Made by a program: the position numbers and the translations under genes
Shown: positions 27,318 to 56,287 of the stretch, piece after piece
Layout of the letters: the number at the start of each line of letters is the position of its first letter
How positions within the stretch are numbered: the first letter of the stretch is position 1
The notes under the pieces: model-generated
What the model saw: the letters and a program-made list of their open reading frames with translations, nothing else
What the model was told of the DNA's origin: nothing
Databases searched by the model: none
NCBI RefSeq assembly: GCF_002887595.1
Contig: NZ_PEBU01000008.1
Coordinates: forward strand, 62,001-126,000
DNA length: 64,000 nt
DNA from: Bowmanella denitrificans
GTDB taxonomy: Bacteria > Pseudomonadota > Gammaproteobacteria > Enterobacterales > Alteromonadaceae
Reading direction: 5' to 3'

Positions 27318-30300
27318 ATGGGCATGGACAAACTTGATAATTACAATCGCCTGACGGAACTCCCGGCTTTAAGCACGAACATCAGGCTTTTCAAGGCGCT
27401 GTCGGTACAGGGTGAAGCCTTGTTTATCAAGCAACGCGATATCGGCAAAGATGCGGATACCTCTGCCACAGAGATGCCCGACATGGACTGTCTGGCAGTA
27501 ACATTAAGCGCATTCAGTGAAGCCGGTCAGTATGTTGAAGTACTGGCCATAAACGAACATGAGCTGGATCTGTGGCAATTGGTTTCCCGTCTACCCAAAC
27601 AGGACCTGAATTTACGCTTGCAAGCGATGCTGCAACTGGCCCAGGCTGTAGCAGAGATTCATGCACAAAAACTTATTTGTGGTTACCTTAATCCCAGAGC
27701 ACTTTACTGGAATAACGACGCCAGTAGTCTGAGTATTTTGGATTTAGGCCACCCAAGCGTGGTCAGTCAGGTAAACCGGCACAGCCTTCAGGGTCAGCTT
27801 GACCCGGTATTATTGAAAGTCATGGCACCGGAGGTCACAGGGCGGGTTAATTGCCCGATGGATAATCGTTCTGACCTGTATTCCTTGGGAACCTTGTGTT
27901 ATTTCCTGGCAACTGACAGGTTCCCGTTTGAAGCAGACGATGGCATGGAACTTATTCACGCCCAAATTGCCTCCACCGCGCCGCCACCAAAAGAACTAAA
28001 CCCTGGTCTGCCCACACAAGTCAGCAAAATAATCGAGCGGTTGCTCAACAAAAACCCCAATGACAGATATGGAGATATCCAGGGGGTACTGCAAGATTTA
28101 CAACAATGTCAGCAGCAATGGCAGAAGTCAGCCAGCATCAGCGCTTTTCCGATGTCGGTGTCATTAGGCAGCCAGCGACTGCATTTTTCCAACCAACTAT
28201 ATGGCCGAGATACACAAGTTCGTCAGTTACAAGGTTTATTTGAACGCACCCTGGTGGAAAAGCAAAGCCACTTACTTTGTATCAAGGGTTATTCAGGGAT
28301 CGGAAAAACCGCCATAGTTGAGCAACTTGCCCAACCGGGCCTGACCAACAAAGCCAATTTCATTCGCGGTAAATGCGAACAGTTTCAACGTGATGGCCTG
28401 TTTGGTGCCATCCTCGAAGCATTGGGTGAGCTGGCGGAGCAGCTATTGCAGGAAAATGCCGCGCAATTGGCGCATTGGCAACAATGCCTGCAGCAAGCGG
28501 CGGGCGATGACGCATACTTGCTAGCAGCCTTTATGCCGCAATGGCTGCCAATAACCGGCCCCGCCCAGAACAGTGACGCTGCCGATTATCAGGATACCAG
28601 ATTCAGTAAGCTGCTAATCCGGCTGTTTAAAGTGTTCGCCCAACAGCAGCGCCCTGTGGTGCTATTTCTGGATGATATGCAATGGGCCGATACCGCCAGT
28701 TTAAATCTGTTGGAAGAGCTGCTGACCGATAAGCAAATAGATAATTTGTTGGTTTTACTGGCATACCGTGACAATGAAGTCAGCGATACCCACCCTTTGC
28801 TGTATTGTCTGACCCGCATCGGCAAATCAGGTGTCAGGGTTGAACAGATGCAGGTTGATGCGTTAGCAGATTCAGCGGTGCAGGAACTACTGGCAGACAC
28901 CCTGGGCAAACCTAAAGGCGAGCTGACAGCATTAACCGCTTTGCTGATGCAAAAAACCAATGGTAACCCCTATTTTGTGCGCCAGTTCTTACTGACATTG
29001 CATGATCAGGGCTTGTTACAACGCGACACTCAGGGACACTGGTATTGGGATGTAACAGAAATTGCCCAACAGAAAATTACCGACAACCTGGTTGAGCTTA
29101 CCACCTTGCGATTTGAACGCTTGTCGGCCCATAGCCGCCGCCTGCTGAGTATCGCGGCCCTGATAGGCAATAGCAGCCAATGCCAGATATTGGCTGAGCT
29201 GTTGGGGCTAACACGCCAGCAGTTGGAAATGCACATCGCCGAGATTGTTCAGGAAGGCATTATGACGGCCTTTACCGATACCAAAGGTGCCCGGATTGAG
29301 TCGCTACGCTTTAACCATGACAAATTGCAGCAGGCCGCATACAAACTGTGCAGTGAGCAAACCCAGATGCAACTGCATCTGGCCATAGGTGAGTATTATC
29401 TGGAAAATTACCCGGCTGCACAGCTCAATGATGTAGTACTTGAATTTGTCAACCATCTGAACGCAGCCAGCAGGCTGTTTGTGGCCAACCATAACAGGTT
29501 GTCACTGGCCAACTTTAACCTGCAGGCGGGTGAAAAAGCCCTGGCGGCCAACGCTCACAGTGCTGCCAGAGATTACCTGAGTATTGCCGCAGGCTTGCTG
29601 GAAGAAAGCGACTGGCATGAACACCACGATGTGTGTTTTAAGGTTAAGCTGGCAATGGCCAGCAGTTTTTATCTAACCCAGGCCTACGAGGAAGCCGGGC
29701 ATCTTTGCCAGGCTTTGCTGGAGCATGTCCGGGACCTGACCGATAAACTGCGAGTCACCAAGTTGCAGCTACTGATCTTGTACGGCCAGAATCAGCTTCC
29801 TGAGGTGTACCAGCTTGGCGCGCAGGTGTTAGTTGAAGCCGGTATTGATATTCGCGAGCCTGCCGGTATTGCGACCCGCTATCTGGAACTGGAGCAGCAT
29901 TATGATAAAAACAACATTGCTGGCCTTATTCATAAACCGGCCTTGAAAGACGAGAAGCTGAAACTGGCCATCGAGGCCTTGAATGTGCTTTCCACCGCAG
30001 CCTATATTCTGGGGCCGGATCATTATCTTACCGTGACCCATGCGATTGTCGCTCTGAGTGTCACTCAGGGTAACTCGGCACCAGCCAGCCGCGCATACGG
30101 CTCCCATGCCATCATTCTCAGCGGTGCTTATGGACAGTATCAGCAAGCACTGCAGTTTGCCGACCTGGCCATTGAAGTGGACAGACGTTACCAACATTTG
30201 TACACCCCTGAAGTGCAGTTCCAGAAAGCCGCCGCTGTTCTGCCCTGGGTTGCGCCCCTGGCGCAGAGCCTCGACAGTCTGGAGAGCAATATTTATCTGG

Positions 30301-33300
30301 CCATGGATGACAGCAACATAGAGTTTGCCGTGCATTCCGCGCTGTTTTTCGGCTTTTATCTGTGTTTAAGCGGCAAGCCGCTGGACAGAGTTAATGTGCA
30401 GATGGACAAGTATGCACGTTTTATTATGGACAAACGCATTCCCTATAATCTGGAGTTCATCAATCTTTGGCGCCAATACGTGTTGAATCTGCGCGAAGAT
30501 GAGCAGGACCCATTACTACTGGCGGGGCCAGCCTTTGACGAAGCGGTGCAGGTGGAAGTACTGGAGCAAACCCAGAATCTGACCATTTTGTTTTGCTACC
30601 ATAGTGTCAAACTGATGCTGGCATATTTGCACGATGATCTGGAGCTGGCCGCGCATCACTATCAGGCCGCTGAACCATTGGCGGCTGTGGCGTTTTCACT
30701 GTATCACCAAACCGAATTTCACTTTTTTGCGGCATTACTGGCTGCCCGGCTCAGCCAGACTGAGCACGACTCATGGTATCAGGTACTGCAAGGTAAACTG
30801 ACACTACTGCAAAACTGGGCCATTAACGCCCCAGACAATCACCAGCACAAAGTGCTGCTGTTGGAAGCCGAACTGGCCAGGCTTAATAAGCAGGCTGCCG
30901 GCTGGCAACAATATGAAACCGCCATTCAGGCAGCACAGCAGTCAGGCTTTATCCAGCATCAGGCCATTGCCGAAGAACGTTACGCAGATTATTGGCTGCA
31001 AATGGGCAACCTGGATTTTGCTCAGCAGTTGCAAAGCAAAGCCTATCAGAACTTTAAGTTCTGGGGGGCTATCAGCAAGGTGCGCCATATGCGTCTGCGT
31101 CAAGTCGCAGGCCAGGCCGGTCAGGCAGACCAGGTGCAGCGCAGCGAAGATCTGGATTTAGTATCGGTATTTAAGGCATCAGAAACCTTAAGTGGTAAAG
31201 TCAATCTGCGCGCCTATCTGGACAAAATGATCCATATTATTGTCGAAAATGCCGGCGCGCAGGCCGGCACATTGCTGTTTGTTGACGATGAAGGCGTGTT
31301 AAAAGTCCGCGCCGGTTATCCGGAAATTCGCCAGCATGAAGACTTGCCTCACAGTTTGTTAACCCTGGTCAGCCGTACCCTTAAGCCGAAACTGCTCAAC
31401 AATATTGCGCAGGCCGGCAGTCTGGCCCGAGATCCTTACCTACAGCGCAGCCAACCCCAGTCTCTGCTCTGTATTCCTGTGATCGTAACCGGCAGTTATC
31501 GCGGTATTCTGTACTTAGAGCACTTCGACATGAGCGGTGCCTTTCCCCAGGACAGAGTGAACGTACTGCAGTTGCTGGCCAACCAGACTGCGGTGATGTT
31601 TGACAACACCAGGCTTTATCATAAAGTGATCGAGGCCAACAAAAACCTCGAGCGCAAGGTCCAGCAGCGCACCGCCGAGCTGGCGGCGTCTAAGCTGAAA
31701 GCAGAAGAAGCCACTCAGGCAAAGTCATCGTTTCTGGCCAAAATGAGTCATGAAATCCGCACCCCTATCAATGCGGTAATTGGCCTGAGCCGCCTGGCCA
31801 TAAAAACCGAGTTGGATTCGGAACAACTGGACTACGTGAGCAAAATTCAGGAATCAGGCGAAACCCTGTTAGGTCTGGTCAACGACATTCTGGATTTTTC
31901 CAAGATCGAAGCAGGCAAAATGACACTGGAACACTGCAGCTTTTCACTCAGTAAGCTGGTGCAGCGTTCCATCAATCTGAACGCCTTCAGAGCACACGCC
32001 AAGGGTCTGGAACTGCTTTGTGATATAGAGCGTGATGTACCCGACCTGTTGCTGGGCGACCCGTTGCGGATCCAGCAAATCTTGGTGAACTTGCTGTCCA
32101 ATGCCATAAAATTCACCGATCAGGGCCTGGTGCATATCCAGCTCAGCGGCAAAGCCAATGAGCAGAATCAGGTGCAGTTGCATATCAGCGTACGGGATAC
32201 CGGAATTGGCATGAGTGAGGAACAACAAAGCAGGCTGTTCCAGTCATTTACTCAGGCAGACGATTCGGTCACACGTAAATACGGCGGCAGCGGCCTGGGA
32301 CTGACCATCAGTAAACAGCTCTGTGATTTAATGCAGGGGCAAATCTGGCTGGAAAGCGAACTGGGCAAAGGGTCCTGTTTCCATGTCAGTCTGCCACTTA
32401 GCCGTTCAATGCAAACTGAAGCCAATCCTTTGTTCAACCCCACCCGCATGGCAAAAATGAAAGTGCTGGTGGTCGACGATGTGGCCCTGGCCAGAAAGTT
32501 GTTGCGTGGCCTATTGCAGGACGTTGGTATCAGCGCAGACGAAGCCAGTAGTGGTGCCCAGGCGATTGACATGGTCAGGCAAGCCGCCACCGACAAAAAC
32601 TGTTACGACACGATTCTGATGGACTGGCGCATGCCGGAGATGGACGGCATCGAAACGTCCAAACGCATTCAGCAAATGGGATTGACGGAATCACCCCGCA
32701 TTCTGATGGTGACCGCCTATGATAAACAAGAGGCCAGAAAACAACTGGGAAGCACCATTATCAACCAGTTTCTGGAAAAGCCGGTGAATCATTCCACATT
32801 GGTGGATGCCCTGACCAATGTGATGGCGGGGCAATTAAATGATAACGAAGAGCAGCACAAAGGGCCGCTGGCCGTTCCTGATCTGCGTCAGTACCGTATT
32901 TTGTTGGTGGAAGACAATGCCATCAACCGCCAGGTGGCCTTGGGAATATTAAAAGACACTGGTGTCAGGGTGGAAACCGCTGAAAATGGCCTGGTAGCGC
33001 TGGAGAAGCTTCAGCAACAAACCTTTGATCTGGTGTTAATGGACATTCAGATGCCCCATATGGATGGTCTGACCGCGACCAATCTGATTCGCCACCAGCT
33101 TAAGCTTGCCGATTTACCTGTGGTGGCAATGACCGCCCACGTGATGGAAGCCGATCGCCAGAAAAGTCTGGAAGTGGGTATGAACGAACATATCTGTAAA
33201 CCTCTGGAACCTGATGTGCTGTTCCAAACTCTGAGCCAGCTGCTGCAGGACAGGGCATTAACCAGGACCGGGAAATTGCCCGTCAGCCAACAGCCCGAGG

Positions 33301-33920
33301 CTGATACAGCTTTACTTGGCAAAGTGGCACGCATCAAACTGTTATCCAGCAAACAAGCCATCAATAATATGAGTGGTAAAACTCAACTGTATTTAAGCTT
33401 GCTACAGGATTTTTATTTTGAACAACAGGAAACGCCAATTCAGCTTCAACATTTATTGGTCAGTGGCAAGCTCGACGAATTATTGCGTTTGGTGCATTCA
33501 TTAAAATCGACCTCTGCTTATATCGGCGCGTTCGACATATCCAAACGTTGCGGGGAAGTGGAAAGCCTGTTGCTGAAAAAAACCTGTGATGAAAAGGCCC
33601 TGGCCGCCATCAGTCATCAGTTACAGGAATTACTGGAAGCACTCAGTCCGCTGTTCCAAGCCCCAAATGGCAGTGGTAGCGCTGAACATTTTAACCCGCA
33701 GCAGTTCCGCCAAACGCTGGTGAAATTACTGCCCCTGCTGCAACAATCGGACTTTGCTGCCGAAGAGCAACTGGCGCAGCTGCTGGGGTTATGCCAGCAA
33801 ACCGAATATGCAGAAAAACTGGAAGAAATTAATCGTCGGGTGGCAGATATTGAATACGAAAAGGCAGCGACTTTAGCCTCTGAATTATTAGCCAGCCTGG
33901 ATAATGACCAAGTGACCTAG
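27318..33920 (+). CDS. Giant pseudokinase / AAA-ATPase / GAF hybrid histidine kinase
   Basis: 2200 residues. Domains in order: Ser/Thr-kinase-like fold (about 20-270), AAA/STAND ATPase (Walker A GYSGIGKT at 324-331; Walker [13 protein letters not shown] near 450), long helical TPR-like region (about 640-1280), GAF (about 1294-1437), HisKA with [13 protein letters not shown] (His near 1478), HATPase ([28 protein letters not shown]), two receivers (from about 1713, [10 protein letters not shown]; from about 1859, [10 protein letters not shown]) and Hpt ([12 protein letters not shown] near 2060). The kinase-like domain has [11 protein letters not shown] where the catalytic HRD loop should be and DLG instead of DFG, so it is probably a pseudokinase. 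No membrane segments are evident, so it is cytoplasmic. The C-terminal half is paralogous to the TPR kinase at 35171. It precedes the borosin pair by 107 nt. Confidence 0.9.
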
Positions 33921-34027
33921 CAAGTTAACCGCCCTAATCCGGCACCAAGCCTATTGCGCTGCGCCTGATTGTTTTTTATGCTTGCGCAGTAAGGATAACA
34001 ACAACTACAAAAATTGAGGGAACGCCC

Positions 34028-34849
34028 GTGAAAAAAGGTCGTCTTACCATTGCAGGCTGCGGTCTGCATCCGGGCCATATGACGCTGGAAACCCAGAGTC
34101 TGATTGAACATGCCGAAATTGTGCTTTTGGTGGCCCCGAATCCCCTGTCTATCCAGCATATACTGCAGCTCAATGCCAATACCGAGCATCTGGGGCGTTT
34201 TTATAATATGGGCTTCTCGCGCCCGGAAATTTACCGGCAAATGGCCAAACGTATTATTGAATTGGTCACGGCCGGCAAAGATGTCTGCACGGTATTTTAT
34301 GGTCATCCCGGCGTATTTGTTTCTTCTACCCGGATGGCCAGCCGGGTTCTTAAGCCTTTAGGTCACCAGGTCCGCATGCTACCCGGCATTTCTGCCGATG
34401 CCTGCCTGTATGCTGATTTGGATCTGGACCCGGCCGATACCGGCTGCCAGTCTTATGAATCCACCCGCTTCTTACTTACCCGCCGCCAGGTAGACAGCAG
34501 CGCCGCGCTGATTTTATGGCAGGTGGGTCTAACCGGTGAGCACAGTATGGATCACTTTCAACCCGGCGAGCAGGGACTGGCTGCCCTGACGAAACTGCTG
34601 TTGCAAAGCTACCCGGCCGATCATCAGGTATGCTTATACGAAGCACCGATTTTTCCCGGCTTTGAACCGAAAAAGGACTGGCTGGCCCTGGCCGATTTAC
34701 CCGGTGCTACAGTCAATACCGTCAGTACCTTGTATATACCGGCCTGTCAGGCCCCGGAATTTGCCGCAGACCGCCTCGCCTGGCTGGGTCTGACGGAAGC
34801 GGATATTCATCATTGGGATGAGTATGAAGAAGTAGAGTGTGATATTTAA
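34028..34849 (+). CDS. Borosin-type peptide backbone N-methyltransferase (SonM-like)
   Basis: 273-residue SAM-dependent enzyme of the tetrapyrrole-methylase fold. It does not look like a corrin enzyme: the block YGHPGVFVSSTRMASRVLKP, then RMLPGISADACLYADLDLDP and YESTRFLLTRR are hallmarks of borosin methyltransferases such as fungal OphMA and Shewanella SonM. Tyr59, Arg65, Tyr69 and Tyr91 have the same spacing (0, +6, +10, +32) as the catalytic residues I recall for OphMA. It should transfer methyl groups to backbone amides of a partner peptide. It lacks a fused core, as in split borosins, and the substrate gene follows 25 nt later. The start is GTG at 34028 with GAGGGAA upstream. Confidence 0.88.
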   Translation: MKKGRLTIAGCGLHPGHMTLETQSLIEHAEIVLLVAPNPLSIQHILQLNANTEHLGRFYNMGFSRPEIYRQMAKRIIELVTAGKDVCTVFYGHPGVFVSSTRMASRVLKPLGHQVRMLPGISADACLYADLDLDPADTGCQSYESTRFLLTRRQVDSSAALILWQVGLTGEHSMDHFQPGEQGLAALTKLLLQSYPADHQVCLYEAPIFPGFEPKKDWLALADLPGATVNTVSTLYIPACQAPEFAADRLAWLGLTEADIHHWDEYEEVECDI

Positions 34850-34874
34850 CCCATAACAACAAAAGGAAAGCCTT

Positions 34875-35165
34875 ATGGATAACCTAAGCCGTTTCTACCT
34901 GGAGCTGGCCACCAATGCCAGCAAACTGGACGCCTTCAATAATGGCAGCAATGCCGCCGAATTGGTCGCTAACCGCCAACGTTTGTTAGCTGAAGCTGGA
35001 GTGGAAGACGCTGATAAGTTACTGACTATGGATAGTGAATCATTGCGTCAAAGTATGGCTAAAACTCTGATTAGCATAACTGGAGATTGGAAGGGATTAG
35101 AAAAAAGCTCAAGTAATAAAGATAATAAAAGCAACATAGTTTCAATCAAGAAATATAATCATTAA
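34875..35165 (+). CDS. Split-borosin precursor peptide (SonA-like)
   Basis: 96 residues. The N-terminal 60 or so form the expected small helical borosin-binding domain (MDNLSRFYLELATNASKLD, AELVANRQRLLAEAGVED, LLTMDSESLRQSMAKTLIS), resembling the LigA-like fold of SonA. The remaining tail is hydrophilic and Ser/Asn/Lys-rich with a hydrophobic cluster at the end (SNIVSIKKYNH), where the methylated core would be expected; TLISITGDW near residue 67 is a second candidate. A strong ribosome site (AAAGGAAAG) precedes the ATG. The tail is encoded by DNA of very low GC, unlike the binding domain. The stop is 5 nt before the TPR kinase ATG, implying co-expression. Core assignment is inference. Confidence 0.78.
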   Translation: MDNLSRFYLELATNASKLDAFNNGSNAAELVANRQRLLAEAGVEDADKLLTMDSESLRQSMAKTLISITGDWKGLEKSSSNKDNKSNIVSIKKYNH

Positions 35166-36235
35166 AAATCATGAGCCAACTTCCCTTTCTTGCAATATTA
35201 ACTTTCAGTTTTTTCATTCTAATGAAATCATTTGCAATGGATAAGGAAAGTTTGGCTCAAAACTCTCTTGAAATCACTAAAATTTCAACTGAGATAGAAT
35301 CAATCGCTAGAGAAAACCCATCTAAAGCTATAGAAATAGCATTGCAAAACCTAAACAAAATAACATATATACAATTTTCTAAGGAACGAGCAACATTACT
35401 CAACTCTTTGTCATATGCGTATTATATGCAAGGTGACTACAAGAGCTCATTGAATTACGCAAAAGAGGTGGAAAAATCAGCAAAAAAAATTAATTCACCC
35501 GAAATATTAGCTCGTTCTTATATGCTTCAGGGCAATGTACTTCAGGGTGTCAACGAATATCCTAGTGCAATTGAAAGATATTTAATAGCTATCAAACTAT
35601 ATAAAGAGTCGAATAACAAATTATATCTTGGATACACCTACAACAACTTAGCTAACACTTACGAAAGATCCGGGAAATATGATTCTGCTTTAGAATATTA
35701 TGATCTCTTTAGAACTACAGTTAAGGGGATTGCTAGCACTGGAAGTGCAGATCTTGGAAGCGGAGATGTATTGCTTGCGAAGGGAAATCCCCAAGAGGCG
35801 AAAACTTATTACGAAGAAGCTCAAAGAAAATACCTATCTGAAAATGATAAATTCGGTTCACTTCTGGCAACTAGCGCTATCGGAAACTCTCTTTCAAAAA
35901 TAGGAGAGGACGATTTAGCCTTAGAAAAGTATCACGAAGCAATAATCGAGTCACAGAAGATTGGATTCAAATTTATAGAGCTTTCTGCAAGATTGAGAAC
36001 TGCAGAATCTTATTACAGGATAGAAAATTATGATGCTGCACTCGACTTTTCAAAAACCTCATTAAATTTAGCAAATGATATTGGTGAACGACTTGAACAA
36101 GTTGAAGCTCACAGATTAATATCAAAAATATTGGAGGAAACAGGGAATCCCCAAGACGCCCTTCTACATTTAAAAAAGGCTCAATCGATACAAGATGAGT
36201 ATCAAAATGAGAAAGCCTCAAACCAGTTGACCGTA
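35010..36235. other. Low-GC cassette spanning precursor tail and TPR sensor
   Basis: Base composition drops from about 50-53% GC to roughly 33% (hand counts of single 60-base rows; the row at 35101 is about 22%) inside the precursor gene. It returns to normal near 36235, inside the kinase gene, just before its coiled coil. Codons such as ATA, AGA and TTA become frequent only here. No insertion sequence, repeat or tRNA borders it. The edges coincide with domain boundaries, so it looks like an exchanged module. Boundaries are good to perhaps 50 nt. Confidence 0.75.
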
Positions 36236-38281
36236 ATGCAGGCCCTATTCGAAAGCGAAGCCAAAGAAGCCCAGATAGCGGAATTGGAAGAGCAAAACCA
36301 GATGCTGCAACTTGAGCAGCAGGTTAGTCAGAAACGCACCGAAAATGCCTGGCTCACCGCGACACTGCTTTTGGGTATGTTGGGTGCCATCGCCCTCTGG
36401 GCGATGCTGATGCAGCGGGAAAAAATACGCCTGGCCAAACTCAGTCAGCAGTTAACGGTGGCCCGCCGTCAGGCTGAAGCGGCGACCGAAGCAAAATCCG
36501 CCTTTCTGGCCAGAATGAGCCATGAAATCCGTACCCCGATCAATGCCGTTACCGGCCTTAGTCGCCTGGCACTGGACAGCCAGAATGAGCGTGAGCAACG
36601 GGGCCATCTGGTGAATATTCTGGATGCAGGTGAAATACTGCTGCGTCTGGTGGACGATATTCTGGATTTTTCCCGTATTGAGGCAGGCAAACTCTCTATC
36701 GAATGTGTGGCACTGGCACCTCGCGAATTGCTAAAAAGCACCCTGAATATGCATATTGTTCAGGCCAATGCCAAAGGCCTGGCACTGGTTGAAGATATCG
36801 CCGCGGATATGCCCCGCCAACTGCTTGGCGACCCCTGGCGCATCAAGCAAATACTGAATAATCTGGTTGGCAATGCCATTAAGTTTACCGAGCAGGGCAC
36901 GGTGACAGTACGCCTTTGTGCTAATCCTGCCCCGGACCAGCCGGATCTGCTGATGCTGGAAGGCGCAGTCAGTGATACCGGCATTGGCCTGAGTCAGGAT
37001 CAGCAGGATGCCTTGTTCCAGTCCTTTAGCCAGGCTGATGATTCCATCACCCGGCGCTTTGGTGGCACCGGCCTGGGACTGGCCATTTGCAAGCAGTTAT
37101 GTGACTTAATGGGTGGCCGTATCTGGGTGGAAAGTGAACCTGGCCAAGGCTCAACATTCAGATTTGAACTGCCGCTTAAACGCCTTGCTGGCAATCCGCA
37201 GCCTTGCCAGGACAACTATCTTCCCAAGGGCATTCCTGACTGGTCACAATACCGGTTGTTGCTGGTGGAAGACAATGAAGTGAATCGCCAGGTGGCCATA
37301 GGGTTATTGCAAAAAACCGCGATTGAGATACAAGTGGCAGAACACGGCCAACAGGCGCTGGACAGATTAAAGGACGAGTTTTTTGATCTGGTTTTAATGG
37401 ATATTCAAATGCCGGTTATGGACGGCCTGACTGCCGCTATTTTGATTCGCCAGGATCTCGAGTTACAGTTACCGATCATCGCCATGACGGCCCATGCCAT
37501 GGAAGCCGACCGGCAAAAAAGCGTTAAGGCTGGTATGGATGGCCACCTTGCCAAACCGATAGATACCCAGACCCTGTATAGCTTACTGGGCAAGTATCTG
37601 CATACCGAGCGCTATTTTTCCCTGGCCTCGCCTGATGCTGAATCCAATGAGCCAACCTGGCAGGTTGAACAACTGGCGGGCCTGAATGTAAAGCAAGCCA
37701 TTGCCAGATTAGGTGGCAACCCGCAATTGTATCAGTCATTGCTGGGGGCTTTTTTTCGTGACCAGAAAGAGACCGCCGGTCAGTTGCGCCAGTTGCTGGC
37801 CCAACACGACCACTCCACATTGTTCAGGTTAATCCATTCGCTGAAATCCAGCAGCGCTTATATCGGCGCGTCAGGCTTATCGGCTCAGTGCGGCGCACTG
37901 GAGGCTATACTTGAACAAGGCCCTTGTGATCCTAAGCCCTTGTTAAAGGTCGCGGATGACCTGGAAGCCCTGTTAAATACGCTGGCGCCAGTATTCGAAT
38001 CCAGCGACCAAAGCAGCCCACAGGCGATTGACGAGAGTGAGCTCAGGAGCCAACTGCAGCAAATACTTGCACTGCTGAAACAATCGGATTTTATGGTGGA
38101 GGAAAAACTGGCGGCGCTGCAAAAATTGTTGGCCGGAGGCCCTTATGCGGAACAAATTGCCCGCCTGGTCAAAAAAGTCGATGATGTGGAATACGAGCGG
38201 GCCGGTGAGTTGGTTGCAGAGATGTTGGCAGAGCTACAGGATGCCGCGCCGCACCATAAACTTAAAGTGTTGAACCCTTAA
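35171..38281 (+). CDS. Periplasmic-TPR hybrid histidine kinase
   Basis: 1036 residues: signal-anchor-like N-terminus (LPFLAILTFSFFILMKSFA), about seven TPR repeats (about 30-350; for example LGYTYNNLANTYERSGKYDSA), a coiled coil, one membrane segment (about 390-412), HisKA with [13 protein letters not shown] (His near 450), HATPase (NLVGNAIKF; DTGIGLSQD; GGTGLGLAIC), a receiver (from about 694; MDIQMPVMDG) and Hpt (IHSLKSSSAYIG near 888). Topology puts the TPR array in the periplasm. TPR arrays in RRNPP regulators bind linear peptides, so the adjacent borosin peptide is an attractive ligand; this is inference. The TPR part is AT-rich foreign-looking DNA, while the kinase part has host composition and is paralogous to the kinase at 27318. 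Confidence 0.9.
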   Translation: MSQLPFLAILTFSFFILMKSFAMDKESLAQNSLEITKISTEIESIARENPSKAIEIALQNLNKITYIQFSKERATLLNSLSYAYYMQGDYKSSLNYAKEVEKSAKKINSPEILARSYMLQGNVLQGVNEYPSAIERYLIAIKLYKESNNKLYLGYTYNNLANTYERSGKYDSALEYYDLFRTTVKGIASTGSADLGSGDVLLAKGNPQEAKTYYEEAQRKYLSENDKFGSLLATSAIGNSLSKIGEDDLALEKYHEAIIESQKIGFKFIELSARLRTAESYYRIENYDAALDFSKTSLNLANDIGERLEQVEAHRLISKILEETGNPQDALLHLKKAQSIQDEYQNEKASNQLTVMQALFESEAKEAQIAELEEQNQMLQLEQQVSQKRTENAWLTATLLLGMLGAIALWAMLMQREKIRLAKLSQQLTVARRQAEAATEAKSAFLARMSHEIRTPINAVTGLSRLALDSQNEREQRGHLVNILDAGEILLRLVDDILDFSRIEAGKLSIECVALAPRELLKSTLNMHIVQANAKGLALVEDIAADMPRQLLGDPWRIKQILNNLVGNAIKFTEQGTVTVRLCANPAPDQPDLLMLEGAVSDTGIGLSQDQQDALFQSFSQADDSITRRFGGTGLGLAICKQLCDLMGGRIWVESEPGQGSTFRFELPLKRLAGNPQPCQDNYLPKGIPDWSQYRLLLVEDNEVNRQVAIGLLQKTAIEIQVAEHGQQALDRLKDEFFDLVLMDIQMPVMDGLTAAILIRQDLELQLPIIAMTAHAMEADRQKSVKAGMDGHLAKPIDTQTLYSLLGKYLHTERYFSLASPDAESNEPTWQVEQLAGLNVKQAIARLGGNPQLYQSLLGAFFRDQKETAGQLRQLLAQHDHSTLFRLIHSLKSSSAYIGASGLSAQCGALEAILEQGPCDPKPLLKVADDLEALLNTLAPVFESSDQSSPQAIDESELRSQLQQILALLKQSDFMVEEKLAALQKLLAGGPYAEQIARLVKKVDDVEYERAGELVAEMLAELQDAAPHHKLKVLNP

Positions 38282-38297: not shown

Positions 38298-39254
38298 ATG
38301 CTGGCTAAACAGCGGGTGTTGATCATCGATGATGAAAAAACCAACCTAAAAATTCTCAGTGACATACTGCGAGACGAAGTTGAAGTGATATTGGCCAAAG
38401 ATGGTCCTCAGGGTATTCGTAAAGCCGGGGAATATGCCCCGGATCTGATCCTGCTGGATGTCGTCATGCAAGACATGAATGGCTTTGACGTCATCAGTCA
38501 CCTTAAGCATGACGCCACCACCAGCGCCATTCCGGTGATTTTTATTACCTCGCTGGGTGATGTCAGCCATGAGGAAAAAGGCTTATTGCTAGGTGCTTGT
38601 GACTATATTCAGAAGCCGTTCCACGCCGCTATCGTGCTGGCCAGAATTAAACTGCATCTGCAGTTGGGCAGACAGCGGCTGATGCTGGAAAAGCTCGCTA
38701 ATATTGATCCACTGACGTCGGTAGCCAATCGTCGTCGTTACGACGAAGTGTTGCACAAAGAATGGCGGGTGGCAGTTCGCAACAAGGCGCCGCTGTCGCT
38801 GGTAATGATAGATATTGATAATTTCAAACAGTTTAATGATCGCCATGGCCACGCGGCAGGTGACAGGGTGTTGCAGGAAGTGGCGCAAACCCTGAATGAG
38901 CAATTAAAACGTCCACGGGATTTACTGGCCCGCTACGGTGGCGAGGAGTTTGTGGTGCTTTTGCCTGATATTGACCGGGCCGGCAGTATGGAAGTGATGG
39001 AAAATTGCAGACTGGCCATCCAGGCCCTACAGTTGGATCATCCCTTTTGTGAAAACAGGCAAAACGTGACGATAAGTATTGGCGGCATTACTTGTAGTCC
39101 TACAATGAAAAACCGTCCGGAGGACAGCCTTAAACTGGCTGACGACATGCTTTACCTGGCTAAGCACCAGGGCAAGAACAGGGTAATGTGGTTTGGCGAA
39201 GAACAGGGAGTGATCCAGCATGACAACAGCGCACCCAACGGTACTGCTGGTTGA
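38298..39254 (+). CDS. Response regulator with diguanylate cyclase output (REC-GGDEF)
   Basis: 318 residues: receiver (acidic pocket IDDEK, Asp in LILLDVVMQDMNG near residue 54, Lys in DYIQKPFH) and GGDEF domain (LANIDPLTSVANRRRYDE; ARYGGEEFVVLLPD; NVTISIGGI). The active motif GGEEF and the RxxD inhibitory site (RPRD, five residues upstream) are intact. It should make c-di-GMP when phosphorylated, most likely by the hybrid kinases on either side. It starts 16 nt after the TPR kinase and overlaps the next gene by 35 nt, so it sits firmly in the operon. This WspR/PleD-like design links the upstream signal to c-di-GMP. Confidence 0.93.
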   Translation: MLAKQRVLIIDDEKTNLKILSDILRDEVEVILAKDGPQGIRKAGEYAPDLILLDVVMQDMNGFDVISHLKHDATTSAIPVIFITSLGDVSHEEKGLLLGACDYIQKPFHAAIVLARIKLHLQLGRQRLMLEKLANIDPLTSVANRRRYDEVLHKEWRVAVRNKAPLSLVMIDIDNFKQFNDRHGHAAGDRVLQEVAQTLNEQLKRPRDLLARYGGEEFVVLLPDIDRAGSMEVMENCRLAIQALQLDHPFCENRQNVTISIGGITCSPTMKNRPEDSLKLADDMLYLAKHQGKNRVMWFGEEQGVIQHDNSAPNGTAG

Positions 39255-41040
39255 TGACGAAAAAGCCAACCTAAGGCTACTCAGCGATCTACTGCGACAG
39301 GACGCCGGTATCATCCTGGCGCAAAGTGGTAACCAGGCCATTGAAAAAGCGGTGGCCATGCAACCGGACTTGATTCTGCTGGATATTCTGATGCCGGGCA
39401 TGGATGGCTTTGACACCCTGCGCGCCCTTAAATCCATGCCGCAAACCAGCGACATACCGGTGATTTTTATTACCGGCCTGGACAACCCACAAAAGGAACA
39501 AGAGGGGCTGCGTCTGGGTGCGCAGGATTACATTCACAAACCTTTTAACATTGACGTGGTAAAAGCCAGAATCGCCACCCAACTGGAAATCGTCCGAAGC
39601 AGAAGGGAGCTGCAAACGCTGTCTGAGGATCTAAGCCGGGCCAGTGAGGCCAAAAGCCGCTTTCTGGCCAATATGAGCCACGAAATACGCACCCCACTGA
39701 CCAGTATTATCGGCTATGCAGAAGCGTTACTGGCGGGAGAGTTTAACGGCGATGAGCAGCAGGCAATCAAAGCCATCAGCGTCAGTGGCAAGCATTTGCT
39801 GACTTTGCTAAATGACGTGCTGGACCTGTCGAAGATAGAAGCGGGCAAGCTGGAAGTGGAATTGTTACCGGTAAATTTAGCGGCACTGCTTGAAGAAGTG
39901 CAGATGCTGGTCGCCGACAACGCCAGAAAAAAGCATCTGACCTTTTCGATGGACCTGGCCAACAACCTTCCACAGGGGATTCTTACCGATCCTGTACGCC
40001 TTAAACAGATCCTGGTTAACCTGCTGTCAAATGCGATTAAATTTACCCCCGAGGGAGAAGTTAGCCTGTCTGTCAGCCAGCAAGGCGAGAAGATGTGTTT
40101 TACCGTGCGAGATACCGGACCTGGTATCGACAAAGCCCGGCAGGCAGAATTATTTGCCCCTTTTACCCAGGGTGATTCTTCTATCAGCCGGGAGTTTGGC
40201 GGTACCGGGCTGGGCCTGAGTATTTCTGCGCAATTGGCGGCGAAATTGTCTGGCCATATTCATCTTGACAGCACACCAGGTCAGGGCAGTAGCTTTAGTC
40301 TTTATCTGCAAGCCCAGCCCTGTCAAATCCCCGGTAAATATGATGCCATAGGTACCAACAAAGGCCAGCTCAACGGCAAAGTATTGCTGGCCGAAGATTC
40401 CACCGAAAGCCGCCAGTTACTCAAACGTATGCTGCAAAGCCAGGGACTGTTGGTGAAGGCAGTGGAAAATGGTCAGCAGTTGCTGGAAGCTGCCATGGCC
40501 GAAGAATTTGATTTGATATTGTCGGATATCAGTATGCCGACCATGGACGGATTGCAGGCCATTAAGTTGATGCGTGCGGTTGGCGTAGATACCGCGGTTA
40601 TTGCCCTGACCGCCAATGTGATGAGTCAGGACATTAAGGTCTATCTTGAATCCGGTTTTACCGACCACCTATCCAAACCCATTGACCGGCAAAAATTCGC
40701 TAAACTGCTGAATACCTATCTTCCCAATTGCCAGAATGTTGATGAACTGCATATGCCAGGAGAGGAAATGCAGCAGTTGATGCAGCAGTTTGTGCGTGGC
40801 TTACCTGCTCATTTAAGAGCCATACAACAAGCGTATCAGCAAAATAATATTGCACAGCTGGAACAATTGGCACATAAGCTCAGAGGCACCGCTGCGTTGT
40901 TTCAGTTCAAACAAATCAGCGAAATGGCCAGGCGCCTGGAACATCGTCTGCCCATTGACAAGCTACCACTGGCTCTTGACGACCTGAGCCAGGAAGTGGA
41001 AAAACTGGTCGCCGATACGGACAAGCTGTCCGCAGACTAA
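39220..41040 (+). CDS. Soluble hybrid histidine kinase (REC-HisKA-HATPase-REC-Hpt)
   Basis: 606 residues, no membrane segment: N-terminal receiver (VDDEKANLRLL; LILLDILMPGMDG), HisKA with [13 protein letters not shown] (His near 152), HATPase ([28 protein letters not shown]), second receiver (LAEDSTESRQLL; LILSDISMPTMDG) and C-terminal Hpt (LAHKLRGTAALFQF near 548). The ATG lies inside the preceding cyclase gene (35-nt overlap) in another frame; a later start would cut the first receiver. Its N-terminal receiver is close to that of the REC-GGDEF protein before it. It probably relays phosphate between the membrane kinase and the single receiver that follows. Confidence 0.9.
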   Translation: MTTAHPTVLLVDDEKANLRLLSDLLRQDAGIILAQSGNQAIEKAVAMQPDLILLDILMPGMDGFDTLRALKSMPQTSDIPVIFITGLDNPQKEQEGLRLGAQDYIHKPFNIDVVKARIATQLEIVRSRRELQTLSEDLSRASEAKSRFLANMSHEIRTPLTSIIGYAEALLAGEFNGDEQQAIKAISVSGKHLLTLLNDVLDLSKIEAGKLEVELLPVNLAALLEEVQMLVADNARKKHLTFSMDLANNLPQGILTDPVRLKQILVNLLSNAIKFTPEGEVSLSVSQQGEKMCFTVRDTGPGIDKARQAELFAPFTQGDSSISREFGGTGLGLSISAQLAAKLSGHIHLDSTPGQGSSFSLYLQAQPCQIPGKYDAIGTNKGQLNGKVLLAEDSTESRQLLKRMLQSQGLLVKAVENGQQLLEAAMAEEFDLILSDISMPTMDGLQAIKLMRAVGVDTAVIALTANVMSQDIKVYLESGFTDHLSKPIDRQKFAKLLNTYLPNCQNVDELHMPGEEMQQLMQQFVRGLPAHLRAIQQAYQQNNIAQLEQLAHKLRGTAALFQFKQISEMARRLEHRLPIDKLPLALDDLSQEVEKLVADTDKLSAD

Positions 41041-41055: not shown

Positions 41056-41445
41056 ATGCCATACAGGGAAATGACCGCCCTGATTGTTGATGATGATGCC
41101 GATGTCAGGGCTTTTTTACGTACCGCACTGCGCAGTCTGTTTAGCTGTAATCTGATGGAAGCCTCTTGCGGAGACACCGCAGTGGGTATCTATACAAAAA
41201 ACCAGATAGATTTGGTGTTTCTGGATATTCAGATGCCGGGAAAAGACGGTATGGCCATCTTACGCGAATTAAAGCAAACCGACGCCAATGCCAAGATAGT
41301 GATGGTAAGCGCCCATGGCACCATGGATTATGTTACCGAAGCCATCAAACTGGGGGCGTCGGGTTTTATCCTGAAACCTTTCCATCTGCAGAAAATTAAG
41401 GCCATTGTTGAAAAATTAATGGGCCCCGCCACCAGTCCGGCCTAG
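41056..41445 (+). CDS. Single-domain response regulator (CheY-like)
   Basis: 129 residues, only a receiver: acidic pocket VDDDADV, phospho-Asp in LVFLDIQMPGKDG (about residue 58), Ser/Thr in KIVMVSAHG and Lys in GFILKPFHL. It has no output domain, so it is a phosphate shuttle, a phosphate sink or a protein-interaction output. It starts 15 nt after the hybrid kinase, whose C-terminal Hpt is the likely donor. It is the last gene tightly linked to the operon; about 80 nt follow before the TPR-GGDEF gene. Confidence 0.9.
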   Translation: MPYREMTALIVDDDADVRAFLRTALRSLFSCNLMEASCGDTAVGIYTKNQIDLVFLDIQMPGKDGMAILRELKQTDANAKIVMVSAHGTMDYVTEAIKLGASGFILKPFHLQKIKAIVEKLMGPATSPA

Positions 41446-41523
41446 GGGCGCACAATAAGGACTTTGCCACAGGCGTGACCTTTGCGGCATAATTGCGCAA
41501 AATTACCGCAAAAGGAATGCACA

Positions 41524-43404
41524 TTGCGCCTGTTGAGCCTGACCGGTTTATTGTTGTATAGCTGCCTGTCGTCTTCGCTGTATGCCGCATCCAACCAATG
41601 GTTGGCGCAACTCGAAGCACCTTTCCAGCAATGGCAAGCATTGATCAAAACCAACCCACATCTGCTGTTGGAACAGCTACACTCTATGCCTGCGGAGCAT
41701 AAAAACACCGCGTTAAAACAAGCTCAATACCATCTACTGATGAGCCATGCCAGCGGCGCTCTGGTGTTGCCAGAACAATCCATACAAGAAGCACAGGCCG
41801 GGCTCAGCCTGGTGACGTTGGATGAACAGCCCTGGTTATACCACCAATTACAGCTTAGCCTGGCCCTGGCGCTGGATTTAGACGGTGCCCCCGCCAAAGG
41901 GTTAGACGCAGTGACCCAGGCCCTGCTGTGGGCAGAAAGACACGACGATGCAAACCTGCTGGTGGCGGCCCTGATGACCCGCGGCACGTTGTTAAACAGT
42001 CTGACCGACTACTTAGGTGCCATGGCCGATTTGCAACGCGCCTATAATCTGGCGCCGCAACAAAGTGACGATATTGCCAGAGCGGATATTGCCGGTGCAT
42101 TGGCGCTGGTCTATGAATATCGGGGAGAGGATAACCTTTCTTTGCCTTATTTTCAGGAAGCGGTGGATTACTACCGTCAGCAGCCGGCCTCGGTCAGCCT
42201 GAGTATTTATCTGTATGGTCTGGGCCGGGCGAATAAGAACCAGGGCAATACAGATACTGGCCGGGCACAACTGCAGGAATCGGCAAAAATATCTGAACAA
42301 CTGGAAGACCATCAGGGCGTAGCCTACGCGCTTAAAGAAATAGCCGGTATGGACTTACAAGCGCAGCGCTACACCGAAGCAGAGCGTCAGGCGTTAGAGG
42401 CAATACAACTATTCAGGCAAGCCGATAATAACTATATGCTGCTGGATACTGCCCGCTTGTTGTCGAGTATTTATCTGGCACAACAGCAGACCGAAAGAGC
42501 CCAAACCTGGCTTCAGCAGGCCCTGCAGGCGCTGGATCCGGTCAGTATGCCTATCCAGAGAGTTGAGTTGGCCATTCAGCAAGCTAAGGTGCTGGCGGCA
42601 CAGGGCCATTACCAGTCGGCTTTTGACCTTTTATTGCAAAGTACCGACGAGAAACAGGCCATACAAAACAGACAGAGTAGCGAGCAGTTACATCAGCTTC
42701 GCAGTCGCTATGAACTGGATGCTCAGGCCCATCAGAATCAAATACTGAATGCCCAGAATCAGTTGCAGCAAACCCAGTTGCAAAGCCAGCAACGCAAAAA
42801 TCAGCTGCTGATCTTGCTGTTTTTTTGCGCAACCTTAATTTGCACATTGTTACTGTTTCTATTCTATCGCCAACACAGCCACAAACGCGCCCTGCAACAA
42901 CTGGCCGACACAGACAGTTTGACGGGGCTGCTAAACCGACGTAAAACACTGGCCCTGTTGCAACTGCAGGCCGATCTGGCTAAACGCCATGGTTTTGATT
43001 TTTGTGTGGCCTTGGTTGACCTGGACCATTTCAAAAAAATCAATGACAGTCTGGGGCATCAGGGGGGTGACGTGGTATTAAAGCATTTTGCCGATCTTTG
43101 TCAAAAAACCCTGAGGCATACAGATATTGTCGGCCGCATAGGCGGTGAGGAATTCCTGATTGCCCTTCCCCATACCAGTATTGACGATGCCGCTGTTCTG
43201 ATGGAAAAGCTTAGGAAACGCGCCGAAGACATCACCAAGATGATGGCGCTGACTGATTTGCAAGTATCAATTTCAATCGGGCTGGTAAACAATACGCCAC
43301 CGCGCACTGCCATAGAGCTTCTGGCCCAGGCAGATAAAATCCTGTATTCGGCCAAAGACGCCGGTCGTAACCGGGTTGTTGTGGATATTCCAGCGGTAGC
43401 ATAA
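41524..43404 (+). CDS. TPR sensor diguanylate cyclase
   Basis: About 626 residues: signal peptide (RLLSLTGLLLYSCLSSSLYA), TPR-like periplasmic domain (about 30-370), coiled coil, one membrane segment (about 430-450; LLILLFFCATLICTLLLFLF) and GGDEF domain (LADTDSLTGLLNRRKTLA; GRIGGEEFLIALPH; QVSISIGLV) with RxxD site RHTD. The start is the TTG at 41524, with AAAGGA seven bases upstream, giving a standard signal peptide; an ATG frame from 41482 would add 14 residues before it. Architecture parallels the TPR hybrid kinase at 35171, but its base composition is normal. It makes c-di-GMP in response to a periplasmic cue. Confidence 0.9.
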   Translation: MRLLSLTGLLLYSCLSSSLYAASNQWLAQLEAPFQQWQALIKTNPHLLLEQLHSMPAEHKNTALKQAQYHLLMSHASGALVLPEQSIQEAQAGLSLVTLDEQPWLYHQLQLSLALALDLDGAPAKGLDAVTQALLWAERHDDANLLVAALMTRGTLLNSLTDYLGAMADLQRAYNLAPQQSDDIARADIAGALALVYEYRGEDNLSLPYFQEAVDYYRQQPASVSLSIYLYGLGRANKNQGNTDTGRAQLQESAKISEQLEDHQGVAYALKEIAGMDLQAQRYTEAERQALEAIQLFRQADNNYMLLDTARLLSSIYLAQQQTERAQTWLQQALQALDPVSMPIQRVELAIQQAKVLAAQGHYQSAFDLLLQSTDEKQAIQNRQSSEQLHQLRSRYELDAQAHQNQILNAQNQLQQTQLQSQQRKNQLLILLFFCATLICTLLLFLFYRQHSHKRALQQLADTDSLTGLLNRRKTLALLQLQADLAKRHGFDFCVALVDLDHFKKINDSLGHQGGDVVLKHFADLCQKTLRHTDIVGRIGGEEFLIALPHTSIDDAAVLMEKLRKRAEDITKMMALTDLQVSISIGLVNNTPPRTAIELLAQADKILYSAKDAGRNRVVVDIPAVA

Positions 43405-43417: not shown

Positions 43418-44026
43418 TTAGCTATCCCCCATGATCAAGCGTAGAAACTTGTTCAACGCGGTTTCCAGACAATGTATGGAATCACCGTCAACCAACAGCA
43501 CAATATGGCCATCCAACTCCCGGTTACCAAAGCTGAAGCGGATTTTAATCAGCAACATCATCTTGTCGTCCTGCCCCTTATCCAGCAGCTTGGCAATGGC
43601 GCCCCAGAACAACTGTGGCGGTTCATAATCAAAATGTTCGTCGAACATGTCTGCCAATGAGGCAAAACAAGCACTTAGCACAATATTGCCCATTTCCCCC
43701 AGCGCATCCTGCTCAATGTCGGTCAGGGCGCCCATCGGGACGTCAATGCCCATCATCATACGCACCAACTCCAGGCTGCGCATTTCAGGAATGACCATCA
43801 TGGCCTGCCCTTTCAAACCACCCGCAAACTTTTGCGCAATAGCACAGACCTCGTGCCCCTGATTCAGATAGTCAACGGCAGTGGGTAGATCACACACATC
43901 CACCATGGGCACGCTCATATGGATGTCTTCCCGCACTATTTCGCTAAGAGCAGCAGCAGCCTGATTCACGCTGATATTAAAAACTTCGCTTAGGGCATCC
44001 CGCTGCAGGTCGTTAAGATGCAGCAT
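43418..44026 (-). CDS. CheC/CheX-like chemotaxis phosphatase
   Basis: About 202 residues with two phosphatase-type helices having the E-x2-N signature: ALSEVFNISVNQAAAALSEI near residue 12 and ALGEMGNIVLSACFASLAD near 108. This is the mark of CheC, FliY and CheX proteins, which dephosphorylate CheY-P. The start at 44026 overlaps the receiver gene by 14 nt; the frame continues upstream only inside that gene. It is the last gene of the chemotaxis-like operon and would reset the receiver proteins encoded in it. It converges on the TPR-GGDEF gene with a 13-nt gap. Confidence 0.85.
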   Translation of the reverse strand: MLHLNDLQRDALSEVFNISVNQAAAALSEIVREDIHMSVPMVDVCDLPTAVDYLNQGHEVCAIAQKFAGGLKGQAMMVIPEMRSLELVRMMMGIDVPMGALTDIEQDALGEMGNIVLSACFASLADMFDEHFDYEPPQLFWGAIAKLLDKGQDDKMMLLIKIRFSFGNRELDGHIVLLVDGDSIHCLETALNKFLRLIMGDS

Positions 44027-44390
44027 GAAAACGCTCCATATCAATAAGCAACTGTTTGACCACATCTGGATTAACGGGCTTTTTGTAGTACCCCAATCCG
44101 GCGTCCTGAACCTGTTGTTGCATGGATCTCTGCACATTGGCAGTTAACAGGCCGATAAAGCATTTTTGCTGACTTTGCTGTAATTGAGTGGCTAACTCCA
44201 GGCCATTCATATTGGGCATATTGAAATCCAGCGAGGCACCATGAAACTGGTGCTTAACGGCCAGTTGCAGCGCTTCATCACCACTGCCCGCTTCAAACAA
44301 CTCCAGATCAGTATGCTGCTCTCGCAAGAAATTGCATACGAATAATCTTGCTACTTTACTGTCATCCACTACCAGAATTTTATAAGGCAT
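44013..44390 (-). CDS. Single-domain response regulator
   Basis: 125 residues, receiver only: pocket VDDSKVA, Asp in GASLDFNMPNMNG (about residue 56), Thr in GLLTANVQ and Lys in YYKKPVNP. It starts 15 nt downstream of the cyclase gene and overlaps the CheC-like gene, which suggests CheC-type dephosphorylation of this protein. No output domain is present. Confidence 0.9.
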   Translation of the reverse strand: MPYKILVVDDSKVARLFVCNFLREQHTDLELFEAGSGDEALQLAVKHQFHGASLDFNMPNMNGLELATQLQQSQQKCFIGLLTANVQRSMQQQVQDAGLGYYKKPVNPDVVKQLLIDMERFHAAS

Positions 44391-44405
44391 AGATGCCTCC
44401 TTTTC

Positions 44406-46379: not shown

Positions 46380-46395
46380 AACTTCGCTCCCATAG

Positions 46396-47598: not shown

Positions 47599-47606
47599 CA
47601 CATCTC

Positions 47607-48683
47607 CTAATGCGTTCGACTCTGCCGAATCAGTACATCCGGCACATCATCCAGTTCGACGACCTGCTCTGCACCACCATGTTTAATCGCCTCTTTGGGC
47701 ATGCCAAACACAACGCAGCTTGCCTCACCTTGTGCATAAGTAATGGCCCCGGCCTCTCGCATGGCTAACAAGCCCCTGGCACCATCGTCACCCATACCGG
47801 TCAGAATAATGCCGCAAGCATTGCGTCCTGCGTTGCGCGCCACAGAGCGAAACAAGACATCCACAGACGGACAATGACGATTTACCACAGGCCCGGCCCG
47901 AACCTGAACATGATAAAACGCACCACTGCGGCTTAACGTCATATGCCGACCACCTGGTGCAATCAGAGCCAGACCAGGCCTGACCCGGTCACCGTCACAG
48001 GCTTCACGCACGTCAATCTGGCACAAACCATTCAGACGCTGAGCGAAGGCAGCGGTGAATTTTTCAGGCATATGCTGAACAATCACCAGGCCCGCCACAT
48101 CAGCCGGAAGGGGACTGAGAATTCGCTCTAATGCAATAGTCCCACCAGTAGAGGTGCCAATAGCTATAACCTTATCAGTGGTTTTACTGAGCGCCGCAGA
48201 GGCTGGTCTTTCCTGCTGATTTTGCAACTGGGTTCTATGCCCTGCAGAAAGCGGACGGATATTGCCGACCCGGGAGGTTGCCGCCGAGCGAATAGCTTCA
48301 ACCAACTGTTGCTTGCTACTTTGCAAAAAGCCTTTCACACCCAACTGTGGCTTAGTAAAGATTGCCACGGCACCGGCCGACAGCGCTTCCATGGTGGTCT
48401 CTGCACCCTGTTCGGTAAGGGAAGAACAAATAACCACGGGTGTGGGCCTGGACCCCATAATTTTTCGCAAGAACGTGATGCCATCCATTCGCGGCATTTC
48501 CACATCCAGGGTAATAACATCCGGCCAGTTTCCGCGCATTTTCTCCACCGCAAAATAAGGATCTGCGGCTGTACCAATCACTTCCATATCAGCTTGTTCA
48601 GTCACTATTGCAGCCAACATTTGCCTAACCACAGCAGAGTCATCCACGATCAATACACGAATTTTTTTCTCTGCATGACTCAT
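47607..48683 (-). CDS. cheB: Chemotaxis protein-glutamate methylesterase
   Basis: 358 residues: receiver ([11 protein letters not shown]; Asp in [13 protein letters not shown] near residue 58) and methylesterase domain with the catalytic region [10 protein letters not shown] (Ser), [11 protein letters not shown] (His) and [14 protein letters not shown] (Asp). It removes methyl groups from MCPs and deamidates them for adaptation. ATGA overlap (4 nt) with the upstream cheD. Complete set with cheR and cheD upstream. Confidence 0.95.
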
Positions 48684-49959: not shown

Positions 49960-49972
49960 TGGACACCTTGGG

Positions 49973-51607: not shown

Positions 51608-51621
51608 AATTACCCCACTTT

Positions 51622-54599: not shown

Positions 54600-54607
54600 A
54601 ACAACGC

Positions 54608-54976: not shown

Positions 54977-54985
54977 AACGGCTCC

Positions 54986-56182: not shown

Positions 56183-56287
56183 GGTATCTCCCGTTATTTG
56201 ATTGTCTGGTGAGAACATGCGCATCAGGCATACAGACTCCTTCCAACTGGTACCAATAAGATCAGCCACGCCAGCACCGCAAACTGC

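Follow-up and report, generated by a model that had tools for sequence, protein, structure and literature searches.

The locus described here raises the question of why a gene pair for a probably backbone-methylated peptide should stand within a run of signalling genes, and what such a peptide might do there. The stretch of DNA that was analysed, called the window throughout, is 64,000 nucleotides long and comes from Bowmanella denitrificans (assembly GCF_002887595.1, contig NZ_PEBU01000008.1). The first-pass annotation of the window, made from the letters alone, had read two neighbouring reading frames as a split borosin pair (an N-methyltransferase and its precursor) with a possible role in signalling. 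Both frames are present as described, of 273 and 96 residues and separated by 25 nt (Table 1). The larger protein contains the YGHPGVFVSS block on which that reading was based, and in a PDB sequence search it matched SonM at an E-value of 6.5e-51 and OphMA at about 1e-42; indeed, all 25 of the PDB sequences matched at E-values up to 0.001 are borosin enzymes. It carries a Pfam TP_methylase domain (7.7e-16), and NCBIfam scores fell far below cut-off, the top match being YabN at 33.6 bits against a cut-off of 525. The PDB matches and this low score rule out a tetrapyrrole methylase, including the CobA/CbiF type that had been named as the identity to check against. Residues Tyr59, Arg65, Tyr69 and Tyr91, picked out by their spacing, align with Y58, R67, Y71 and Y93 of SonM, given as its active-site residues in the available text of PMC8429565, and these four positions are conserved in 166 of 166 aligned enzymes. 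The enzyme is 85–89% identical to its counterparts in Bowmanella records. Judged by these comparisons, the split borosin pair in the window is real, and the enzyme probably methylates the backbone of the small protein.

The 96-residue precursor, when searched alone, had no match in Pfam, NCBIfam or the PDB, and the kinship to SonA that had been proposed for its binding domain is seen in profile comparisons only. A single hhalign comparison of the precursors of the window's clade (9 rows) with SonA-like precursors (17 rows) gave a probability of 87.8 and an E-value of 3.4e-6 over the leader. The profile of those 17 precursors (from Kangiella, Arsukibacterium and others) matches SonA (7ltc_B) at 1.6e-21, and a joint profile of all 26 precursors does so at 2.1e-19; the nine-row profile of the window's clade by itself did not find SonA. 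These profiles point to a SonA-like leader, followed by a short C-terminal core, and only one convincing match to the leader is found in the window's genome. The tail, NIVSIKKYNH, is weakly hydrophobic, which tempers its earlier description as a hydrophobic tail, and the precursor is without an obvious signal peptide. As had been remarked, no exporter or protease was seen beside the enzyme–precursor pair in the window. The minus strand carries, at 2885–10176, genes of MacB-type ABC export together with a sigma-54 two-component pair; some 24 kb away from the precursor, they are too distant to count as linked.

Table 1. Features of the window that bear on the borosin locus (positions are those of the window)
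Feature	Position	Strand	Basis
Hybrid histidine kinase, 2200 aa, upstream	27318..33920	+	Pfam: protein-kinase-like, AAA_16, GAF, HisKA, HATPase, two REC, Hpt
SonM-homologous alpha-N-methyltransferase of a split borosin, 273 aa from a GTG start	34028..34849	+	PDB SonM match, Pfam TP_methylase
Borosin precursor of 96 aa: leader like that of SonA (borosin-binding domain), then a C-terminal core	34875..35165	+	Profile comparison
Variable core, precursor residues 85–96	35127..35162	+	Low identity between three Bowmanella species
Exchanged block: precursor core and kinase sensor domain, AT-rich	35127..36235	+	Codon identity, GC
Candidate cognate sensor, hybrid histidine kinase, 1036 aa	35171..38281	+	Pfam; hydropathy; same place in 9/9 loci
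Sensor domain, kinase residues 24–350, predicted periplasmic helical-repeat	35240..36220	+	Structure model, identity drop
REC-GGDEF response regulator	38298..39254	+	Pfam
Second hybrid histidine kinase, farther down the run	39220..41040	+	Pfam; present too in L031, L032
Single receiver domain protein	41056..41445	+	Pfam
TPR-GGDEF protein without adjoining precursor, served as control	41482..43404	+	Pfam

The 1036-residue kinase begins 5 nt past the stop codon of the precursor. It has hydrophobic segments at residues 1–23 and 393–415, TPR repeats, and, in Pfam, HisKA (441–506), HATPase (553–670), REC (697–804) and Hpt (857–936) domains; the REC-GGDEF protein encoded after it is likely to be its output to c-di-GMP. 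The pair had been described as wedged between two giant hybrid kinases. This holds for the arrangement itself, the flanking kinases being of 2200 and 1036 residues, but only the downstream one belongs to a conserved unit: a downstream TPR histidine kinase accompanies the enzyme and the precursor in all nine loci compared, whereas a full-length counterpart of the upstream kinase is found in three of them (the window, L031 and L032). The upstream kinase was therefore rejected as a member and, on this comparison of loci, probably lies outside the core unit. The run was also said to end in the REC-GGDEF gene; in fact the last three genes of Table 1 come after it. Directly past the signalling run, on the minus strand at 43418–56269, is a group of chemotaxis and c-di-GMP genes, encoding CheC/CheX-like, GGDEF, REC-EAL, CheB, CheD and CheR proteins, two MCPs and a CheA-like protein.

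A neighbourhood survey for co-occurring TPR kinases, suggested with the original annotation, extended the downstream association well beyond these nine loci. Amongst 107 non-redundant SonM genes (the window, 45 named loci and 60 further genome regions, with five duplicate rows set aside), the precursor lies just upstream of a sensor gene in 96, where a unit was taken to be a precursor ending within -60 to +130 nt of the longest reading frame of the sensor; the 96 include L042, whose precursor-like stretch sits about 290 nt before the sensor and which was left out of later pair analyses, and the precursors of L080 and L098 were reassigned. A setting that had seemed unusual is thus the rule in the gammaproteobacterial loci examined, those of Shewanella SonM/SonA included. 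Chance adjacency is ruled out by the 96 units in 107, set against 61 GGDEF and 49 HisKA matches (44 of the latter over cut-off) in the whole 5.48-Mb genome of the window. The typical sensor opens with a signal segment, runs through helical repeats over about 350 residues to a membrane helix, and ends in GGDEF or a histidine kinase. The 11 genes that fail the rule are of several kinds. L127, L130 and L131 still carry a precursor and a sensor-like gene, the unit of L131 being cut by the contig end; L051, L092 and L103 have a precursor-like match and no adjoining sensor unit; in L096 a sensor-like gene of GGDEF type lies on the opposite strand; no precursor or sensor unit was found near the enzymes of L053, L063 and L069; and the second enzyme of L093 is part of a cluster already counted. 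Such a sensor was absent from the neighbourhood of four enzymes from Acidobacteriota, Chloroflexota and SAR324.

Some loci in this survey depart from the common layout. At 8130–9305 of L130, from a Kangiella-like genus, precursor and enzyme are followed by a 391-residue sensor-like protein that has a signal segment and no recognised output domain. In L053, from SAR324, the SonM-like domain lies in a 566-residue reading frame (10001–11614), possibly a fused architecture, and the locus holds no precursor or sensor match. Two SonM-like genes stand in a row in one cluster in L047, L078, L085 and L086, and in L107 and L108 (genomes G004 and G003, of the window's own genus) only a distant enzyme is present (38%), with GGDEF-type units in place of the kinase type.

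The precursor and sensor form the constant part of the unit. The order is enzyme–precursor–sensor in 68 of 92 loci and precursor–sensor–enzyme in the other 24; the output is GGDEF in 66 of the 92 and a histidine kinase in 26, with at least two changes of output type on the enzyme tree by parsimony. The median gap between precursor and sensor is 9 nt (n=89, trusted precursors) as against 48 nt between enzyme and precursor (n=67). Two hydrophobic segments, one near the N-terminus and one after about 350 residues, are found in 87 of 92 sensors. TPR families were recognised by Pfam in the six relatives' sensors scanned and in L060, with matches below the curated cut-off in L182, which is Shewanella-like, and in L057. 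In seven of the 26 kinase-type loci, the window among them, the next gene after the kinase encodes a REC-GGDEF protein, so that a phosphorelay in these loci may take the place of the fused GGDEF domain found elsewhere.

Loci of the Shewanella-like genus, in which the enzyme is present in 92 of the 107 genomes drawn, provide the closest view of this unit. The set comprises 81 loci (L117, 20 regions found by a SonA-like leader, and so chosen for having a precursor, and 60 found by the enzyme) and leaves out a second gene family of about 50% identity and G513, which meets a contig end. The precursor follows the enzyme in 81 of 81, and an intact sensor frame with a GGDEF match is present in 76; the SonM/SonA locus has the same enzyme, precursor and adjoining GGDEF sensor. 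The precursor of L202 contains the SonA leader fragment and has Leu63 and Ile65, at which SonA is methylated; the 596-residue sensor frame of L202 begins at the precursor stop codon. Five of the 81 loci (L196, L205, L207, L208 and L242) retain enzyme and precursor next to a sensor frame that is not intact, and were excluded from the pair analyses. A second, upstream copy of the precursor is found in six (L180, L205, L213, L221, L229 and L232), and in L236, L238, L239 and L252 a second GGDEF-type protein, of 623–656 residues, follows the sensor.

Comparison of close relatives within the oneidensis group revealed that the end of the precursor and the sensor domain are replaced together. The cores there are of two types, YLxISHGNGD-like and FLLVNHGNN-like. 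Loci L180 and L201 are 99% identical in the enzyme, 96% in the leader, 100% in the membrane-adjacent stretch and 97% in the output, yet 29% in the core and 43% in the sensor; L201 and L209 are only 90% identical in the enzyme and 78% in the output, yet 80% in the core and 89% in the sensor. The same pattern is visible in DNA, in an alignment from which L180 was left out: the identity of L202 to L203 or L201, about 0.95 at first, drops to about 0.5 where the core codons begin, stays low through the sensor and, some 60 codons ahead of the membrane helix, recovers to 0.75–1.00, mostly about 0.9. L209 and L203 are the mirror case, with 0.82–0.97 inside the block and mostly lower values outside it. 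The five FLLVNHGNN loci, a label taken from their cores, form one clade in the sensor tree with support of 100/100; both the SonM tree (p 3.7e-32) and the output tree (p 1.4e-10) reject this clade. The precursor core and the sensor domain thus appear in these alignments and trees as one exchanged block, most clearly in Shewanella, whilst methyltransferase, leader and output stay in place. Methyltransferases that are 98–99% identical serve both core types, so that specificity would lie in the core–sensor pair.

The limits of the block were sought, inside preset ranges, in 88 pairs with SonM identity of at least 0.85, sensor identity below 0.55, output at least 0.70 and leader at least 0.65; the pairs (82 Shewanella-like, 4 Arsukibacterium and 2 Bowmanella) are not independent. 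The median breakpoints lie 15 residues before the precursor end and 70 residues before the membrane helix, with 10th–90th percentiles of 11–36 and 49–104, respectively; in some pairs the break falls at 25 to 46 residues from the precursor end and thus inside the leader. A partner with a replaced sensor exists for 41 of the 91 loci that have a close relative and is lacking for 50. Amongst 287 pairs with enzyme identity of at least 0.85, which are likewise not independent and for which one enzyme per locus was taken, the Spearman correlation with the core was 0.84 for the sensor, 0.68 for the leader, 0.61 for the output and 0.37 for the enzyme; in the oneidensis group the values were 0.73 for the sensor, 0.05 for the leader, -0.05 for the output and -0.16 for SonM. 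Partial Mantel tests on 75 Shewanella-like loci gave 0.38 for core and sensor (0 of 2000 permutations as high), 0.07 for core and output (34 of 2000) and -0.12 for core and enzyme, and 0.59 for leader and sensor, so the leader follows the sensor too. For 91 other loci, amongst which L117 was tallied, the values were 0.16 for core and sensor, 0.18 for core and SonM and 0.14 for core and output. Close relatives therefore show a clear tie between core and sensor, whereas over larger distances the tie is not specific.

The same block is discernible in the window. Codon identity to both sister species is low from precursor residue 85 to about kinase residue 355, and the GC content is 0.275–0.42 across 35000–36299 as against about 0.46–0.585 in 34000–34999 and 36300–37999; beyond residue 50 of the precursor it is 0.298, and over the first 390 kinase codons 0.365, as compared with 0.533 for the enzyme and 0.531 for the remainder of the kinase. 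Between the Bowmanella species the sensors are 35.3–35.8% identical as against 84.6–88.3% for the enzymes, 71.9–83.1% for the kinase cores and 82.4–97.2% for the REC-GGDEF proteins; conservation is lower, too, in the Hpt domain and C-terminal part of the kinase (50–65%). The precursor leaders of the three species are 66–76% identical and residues 85–95 of the core 0.27–0.55, so that the cores are not wholly different. A generally fast-evolving sensor is not favoured as the cause, given the flanks of 96–100% identity in L180 and L201 and the TPR-GGDEF control, whose sensor half has diverged less among these three species: between L031 and L032 its identity is 0.59–0.92, where the borosin-linked sensor has 0.24–0.52, and between the window and its sisters it is 0.50–0.74 after the first 51 residues, those 51 having 0.29–0.38. 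Three Lacimicrobium loci with nearly one core have sensors 77–86% and enzymes 86–91% identical; the L031 core resembles the Lacimicrobium core, yet the sensors of L031 and L267 share only 36% identity. Among the matches listed from 395 family genomes no donor of the window's sensor was found, the best other match being 38%.

Core and sensor are hence polymorphic together between conserved flanks, clearly so in the Shewanella-like loci and, for the window, among three species. In sequence terms this block exchange is the signature of pherotypes, a polymorphism like that of the ComX/ComP pherotypes. That the end of the precursor and the sensor are swapped together, like key and lock, suggests that the peptides are chemical signals, and the signalling role first raised for the window is strengthened by it. 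We consider it probable that the locus encodes a signalling peptide that is methylated and a periplasmic receptor specific to it, with core and sensor as a matched, exchangeable pair. By analogy with SonM, the methyltransferase would hold the precursor by its helical leader and methylate backbone nitrogens near the C-terminus. The core would then be released, reach the periplasm and bind the helical-repeat domain of the neighbouring sensor. A structure model of kinase residues 1–420, built with 24 aligned sequences, fits a TPR-like repeat domain: it consists of helices only (mean pLDDT 91.7, pTM 0.79), with paired helices of about 14–18 residues from 50 to 323 and a single long helix that spans residues 327 to 419, the membrane segment included. 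Binding would switch the output of the sensor, in the window through a phosphorelay probably acting on the REC-GGDEF protein and in most relatives by switching the GGDEF domain of the sensor directly, and the core–sensor pair would carry the specificity.

The main competing explanation is that the sensor alone is under diversifying selection, by phages or changing environmental ligands, and that the core is carried along whilst the borosin has another job and a receptor other than this sensor, if any. Since core and sensor lie only a few bases apart, a recombination tract over the sensor start tends to take the core with it, even if the sensor is all that is selected, and outside Shewanella the core is no more tied to the sensor than to the enzyme (the Mantel values of 0.16 and 0.18). 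Against this, the left break falls near the core start in three genera and two gene orders (82, 4 and 2 of the 88 pairs), and the spare precursors appear to have changed as though a core degenerates once parted from its sensor. In L180 and L213, where the working pair is of YLxIS type, the spare copy has at the protein level an FLLVNHGN core whose tail is altered, and L205, whose sensor frame is broken, has the reverse combination, again with an altered tail; for the DNA of the L180 and L213 pieces the nearest match does not settle the core type. These copies may be leftovers of type switches. With both sides weighed, selection on the sensor alone seems an unlikely explanation.

Two further accounts fit less well. 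The methylated precursor or peptide might be a regulatory subunit of the sensor inside the producing cell, with no signal between cells; adjacency and co-exchange suit a subunit as well as a ligand, and the lack of both a neighbouring exporter or protease and an obvious signal peptide would be natural for it. The sensor domain is, however, predicted to be periplasmic from the two hydrophobic segments of 87 in 92 sensors, so that something must cross the membrane, and we think an intracellular partner improbable. Least probable of all, and by our estimate very much so, is an ordinary borosin natural-product cluster in which the neighbouring sensor merely controls expression. Sensors often adjoin biosynthetic genes, and signalling genes are common in this genome; but the adjacency of precursor and sensor persists while the place of the enzyme and the type of output vary, and core and sensor are exchanged together.

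The nearest known relative of the locus is the type IV split borosin SonM/SonA of Shewanella oneidensis (PMC8429565, available text), which likewise has a separate methyltransferase and precursor, the enzyme being homologous with the same four active-site residues and the leader being homologous. Shewanella-like loci likewise have a sensor with GGDEF directly after the precursor, but the window's precursor is longer than SonA (96 as against 71 residues) with a different core, and the window has a histidine kinase and a REC-GGDEF protein rather than a fused GGDEF. As for a peptide signal with an adjacent sensor, ComQXPA of Bacillus (PMC4008528, in part) similarly has a modifying enzyme, a precursor and a membrane sensor kinase in a row, with a variable sensor N-terminus, a conserved kinase part and distinct communication groups, as here. 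There is no homology: ComQ is an isoprenyltransferase and ComP is polytopic, whereas the window has a TP_methylase enzyme and a TPR-repeat sensor with two hydrophobic segments, and so falls outside ComQXPA; moreover, the modifying enzyme here is nearly invariant across types, the sensor is of helical-repeat type and the organisms are Gram-negative. The RRNPPA receptors (PMC9765709, in part) also bind peptide pheromones, often encoded next door, by TPR domains, but they are cytoplasmic proteins of Firmicutes whose peptides are exported and then re-imported. The sensor described here is membrane-anchored with a predicted periplasmic domain, and its N-terminal hydrophobic segment, membrane helix and histidine kinase place it outside that family.

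In the portions of the borosin literature that were available, no link of borosins to a receptor or to signalling was found, and no receptor for SonM/SonA is named in the available text of PMC8429565. A GGDEF domain is listed among borosin architectures in the Figure 1 legend of PMC11395268, so the GGDEF neighbour had probably been seen before. As of 2021, no type IV borosin pathway had been tied to a final product, according to the available text of PMC8429565. The exchange block supplies a candidate receptor for borosin peptides and makes their specificity testable in a strain used in laboratories. That 2021 status may since have changed, as work by Crone and colleagues from 2023 reportedly concerns a bacterial borosin product. 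A product of the Shewanella locus, or a signalling proposal for it, may already be in print (e.g. Imani 2022; Cho 2022; Lee 2024; Crone 2023). The broadest reading, which we would neither press nor dismiss, is that gammaproteobacterial split borosins, SonM/SonA included, are widespread N-methylated peptide pheromones with periplasmic TPR receptors, c-di-GMP or phosphorelay outputs and exchangeable pherotypes. If the signalling interpretation is right, they would constitute a new class of Gram-negative peptide signalling, in which a TPR receptor with a link to c-di-GMP reads a backbone-methylated ligand.
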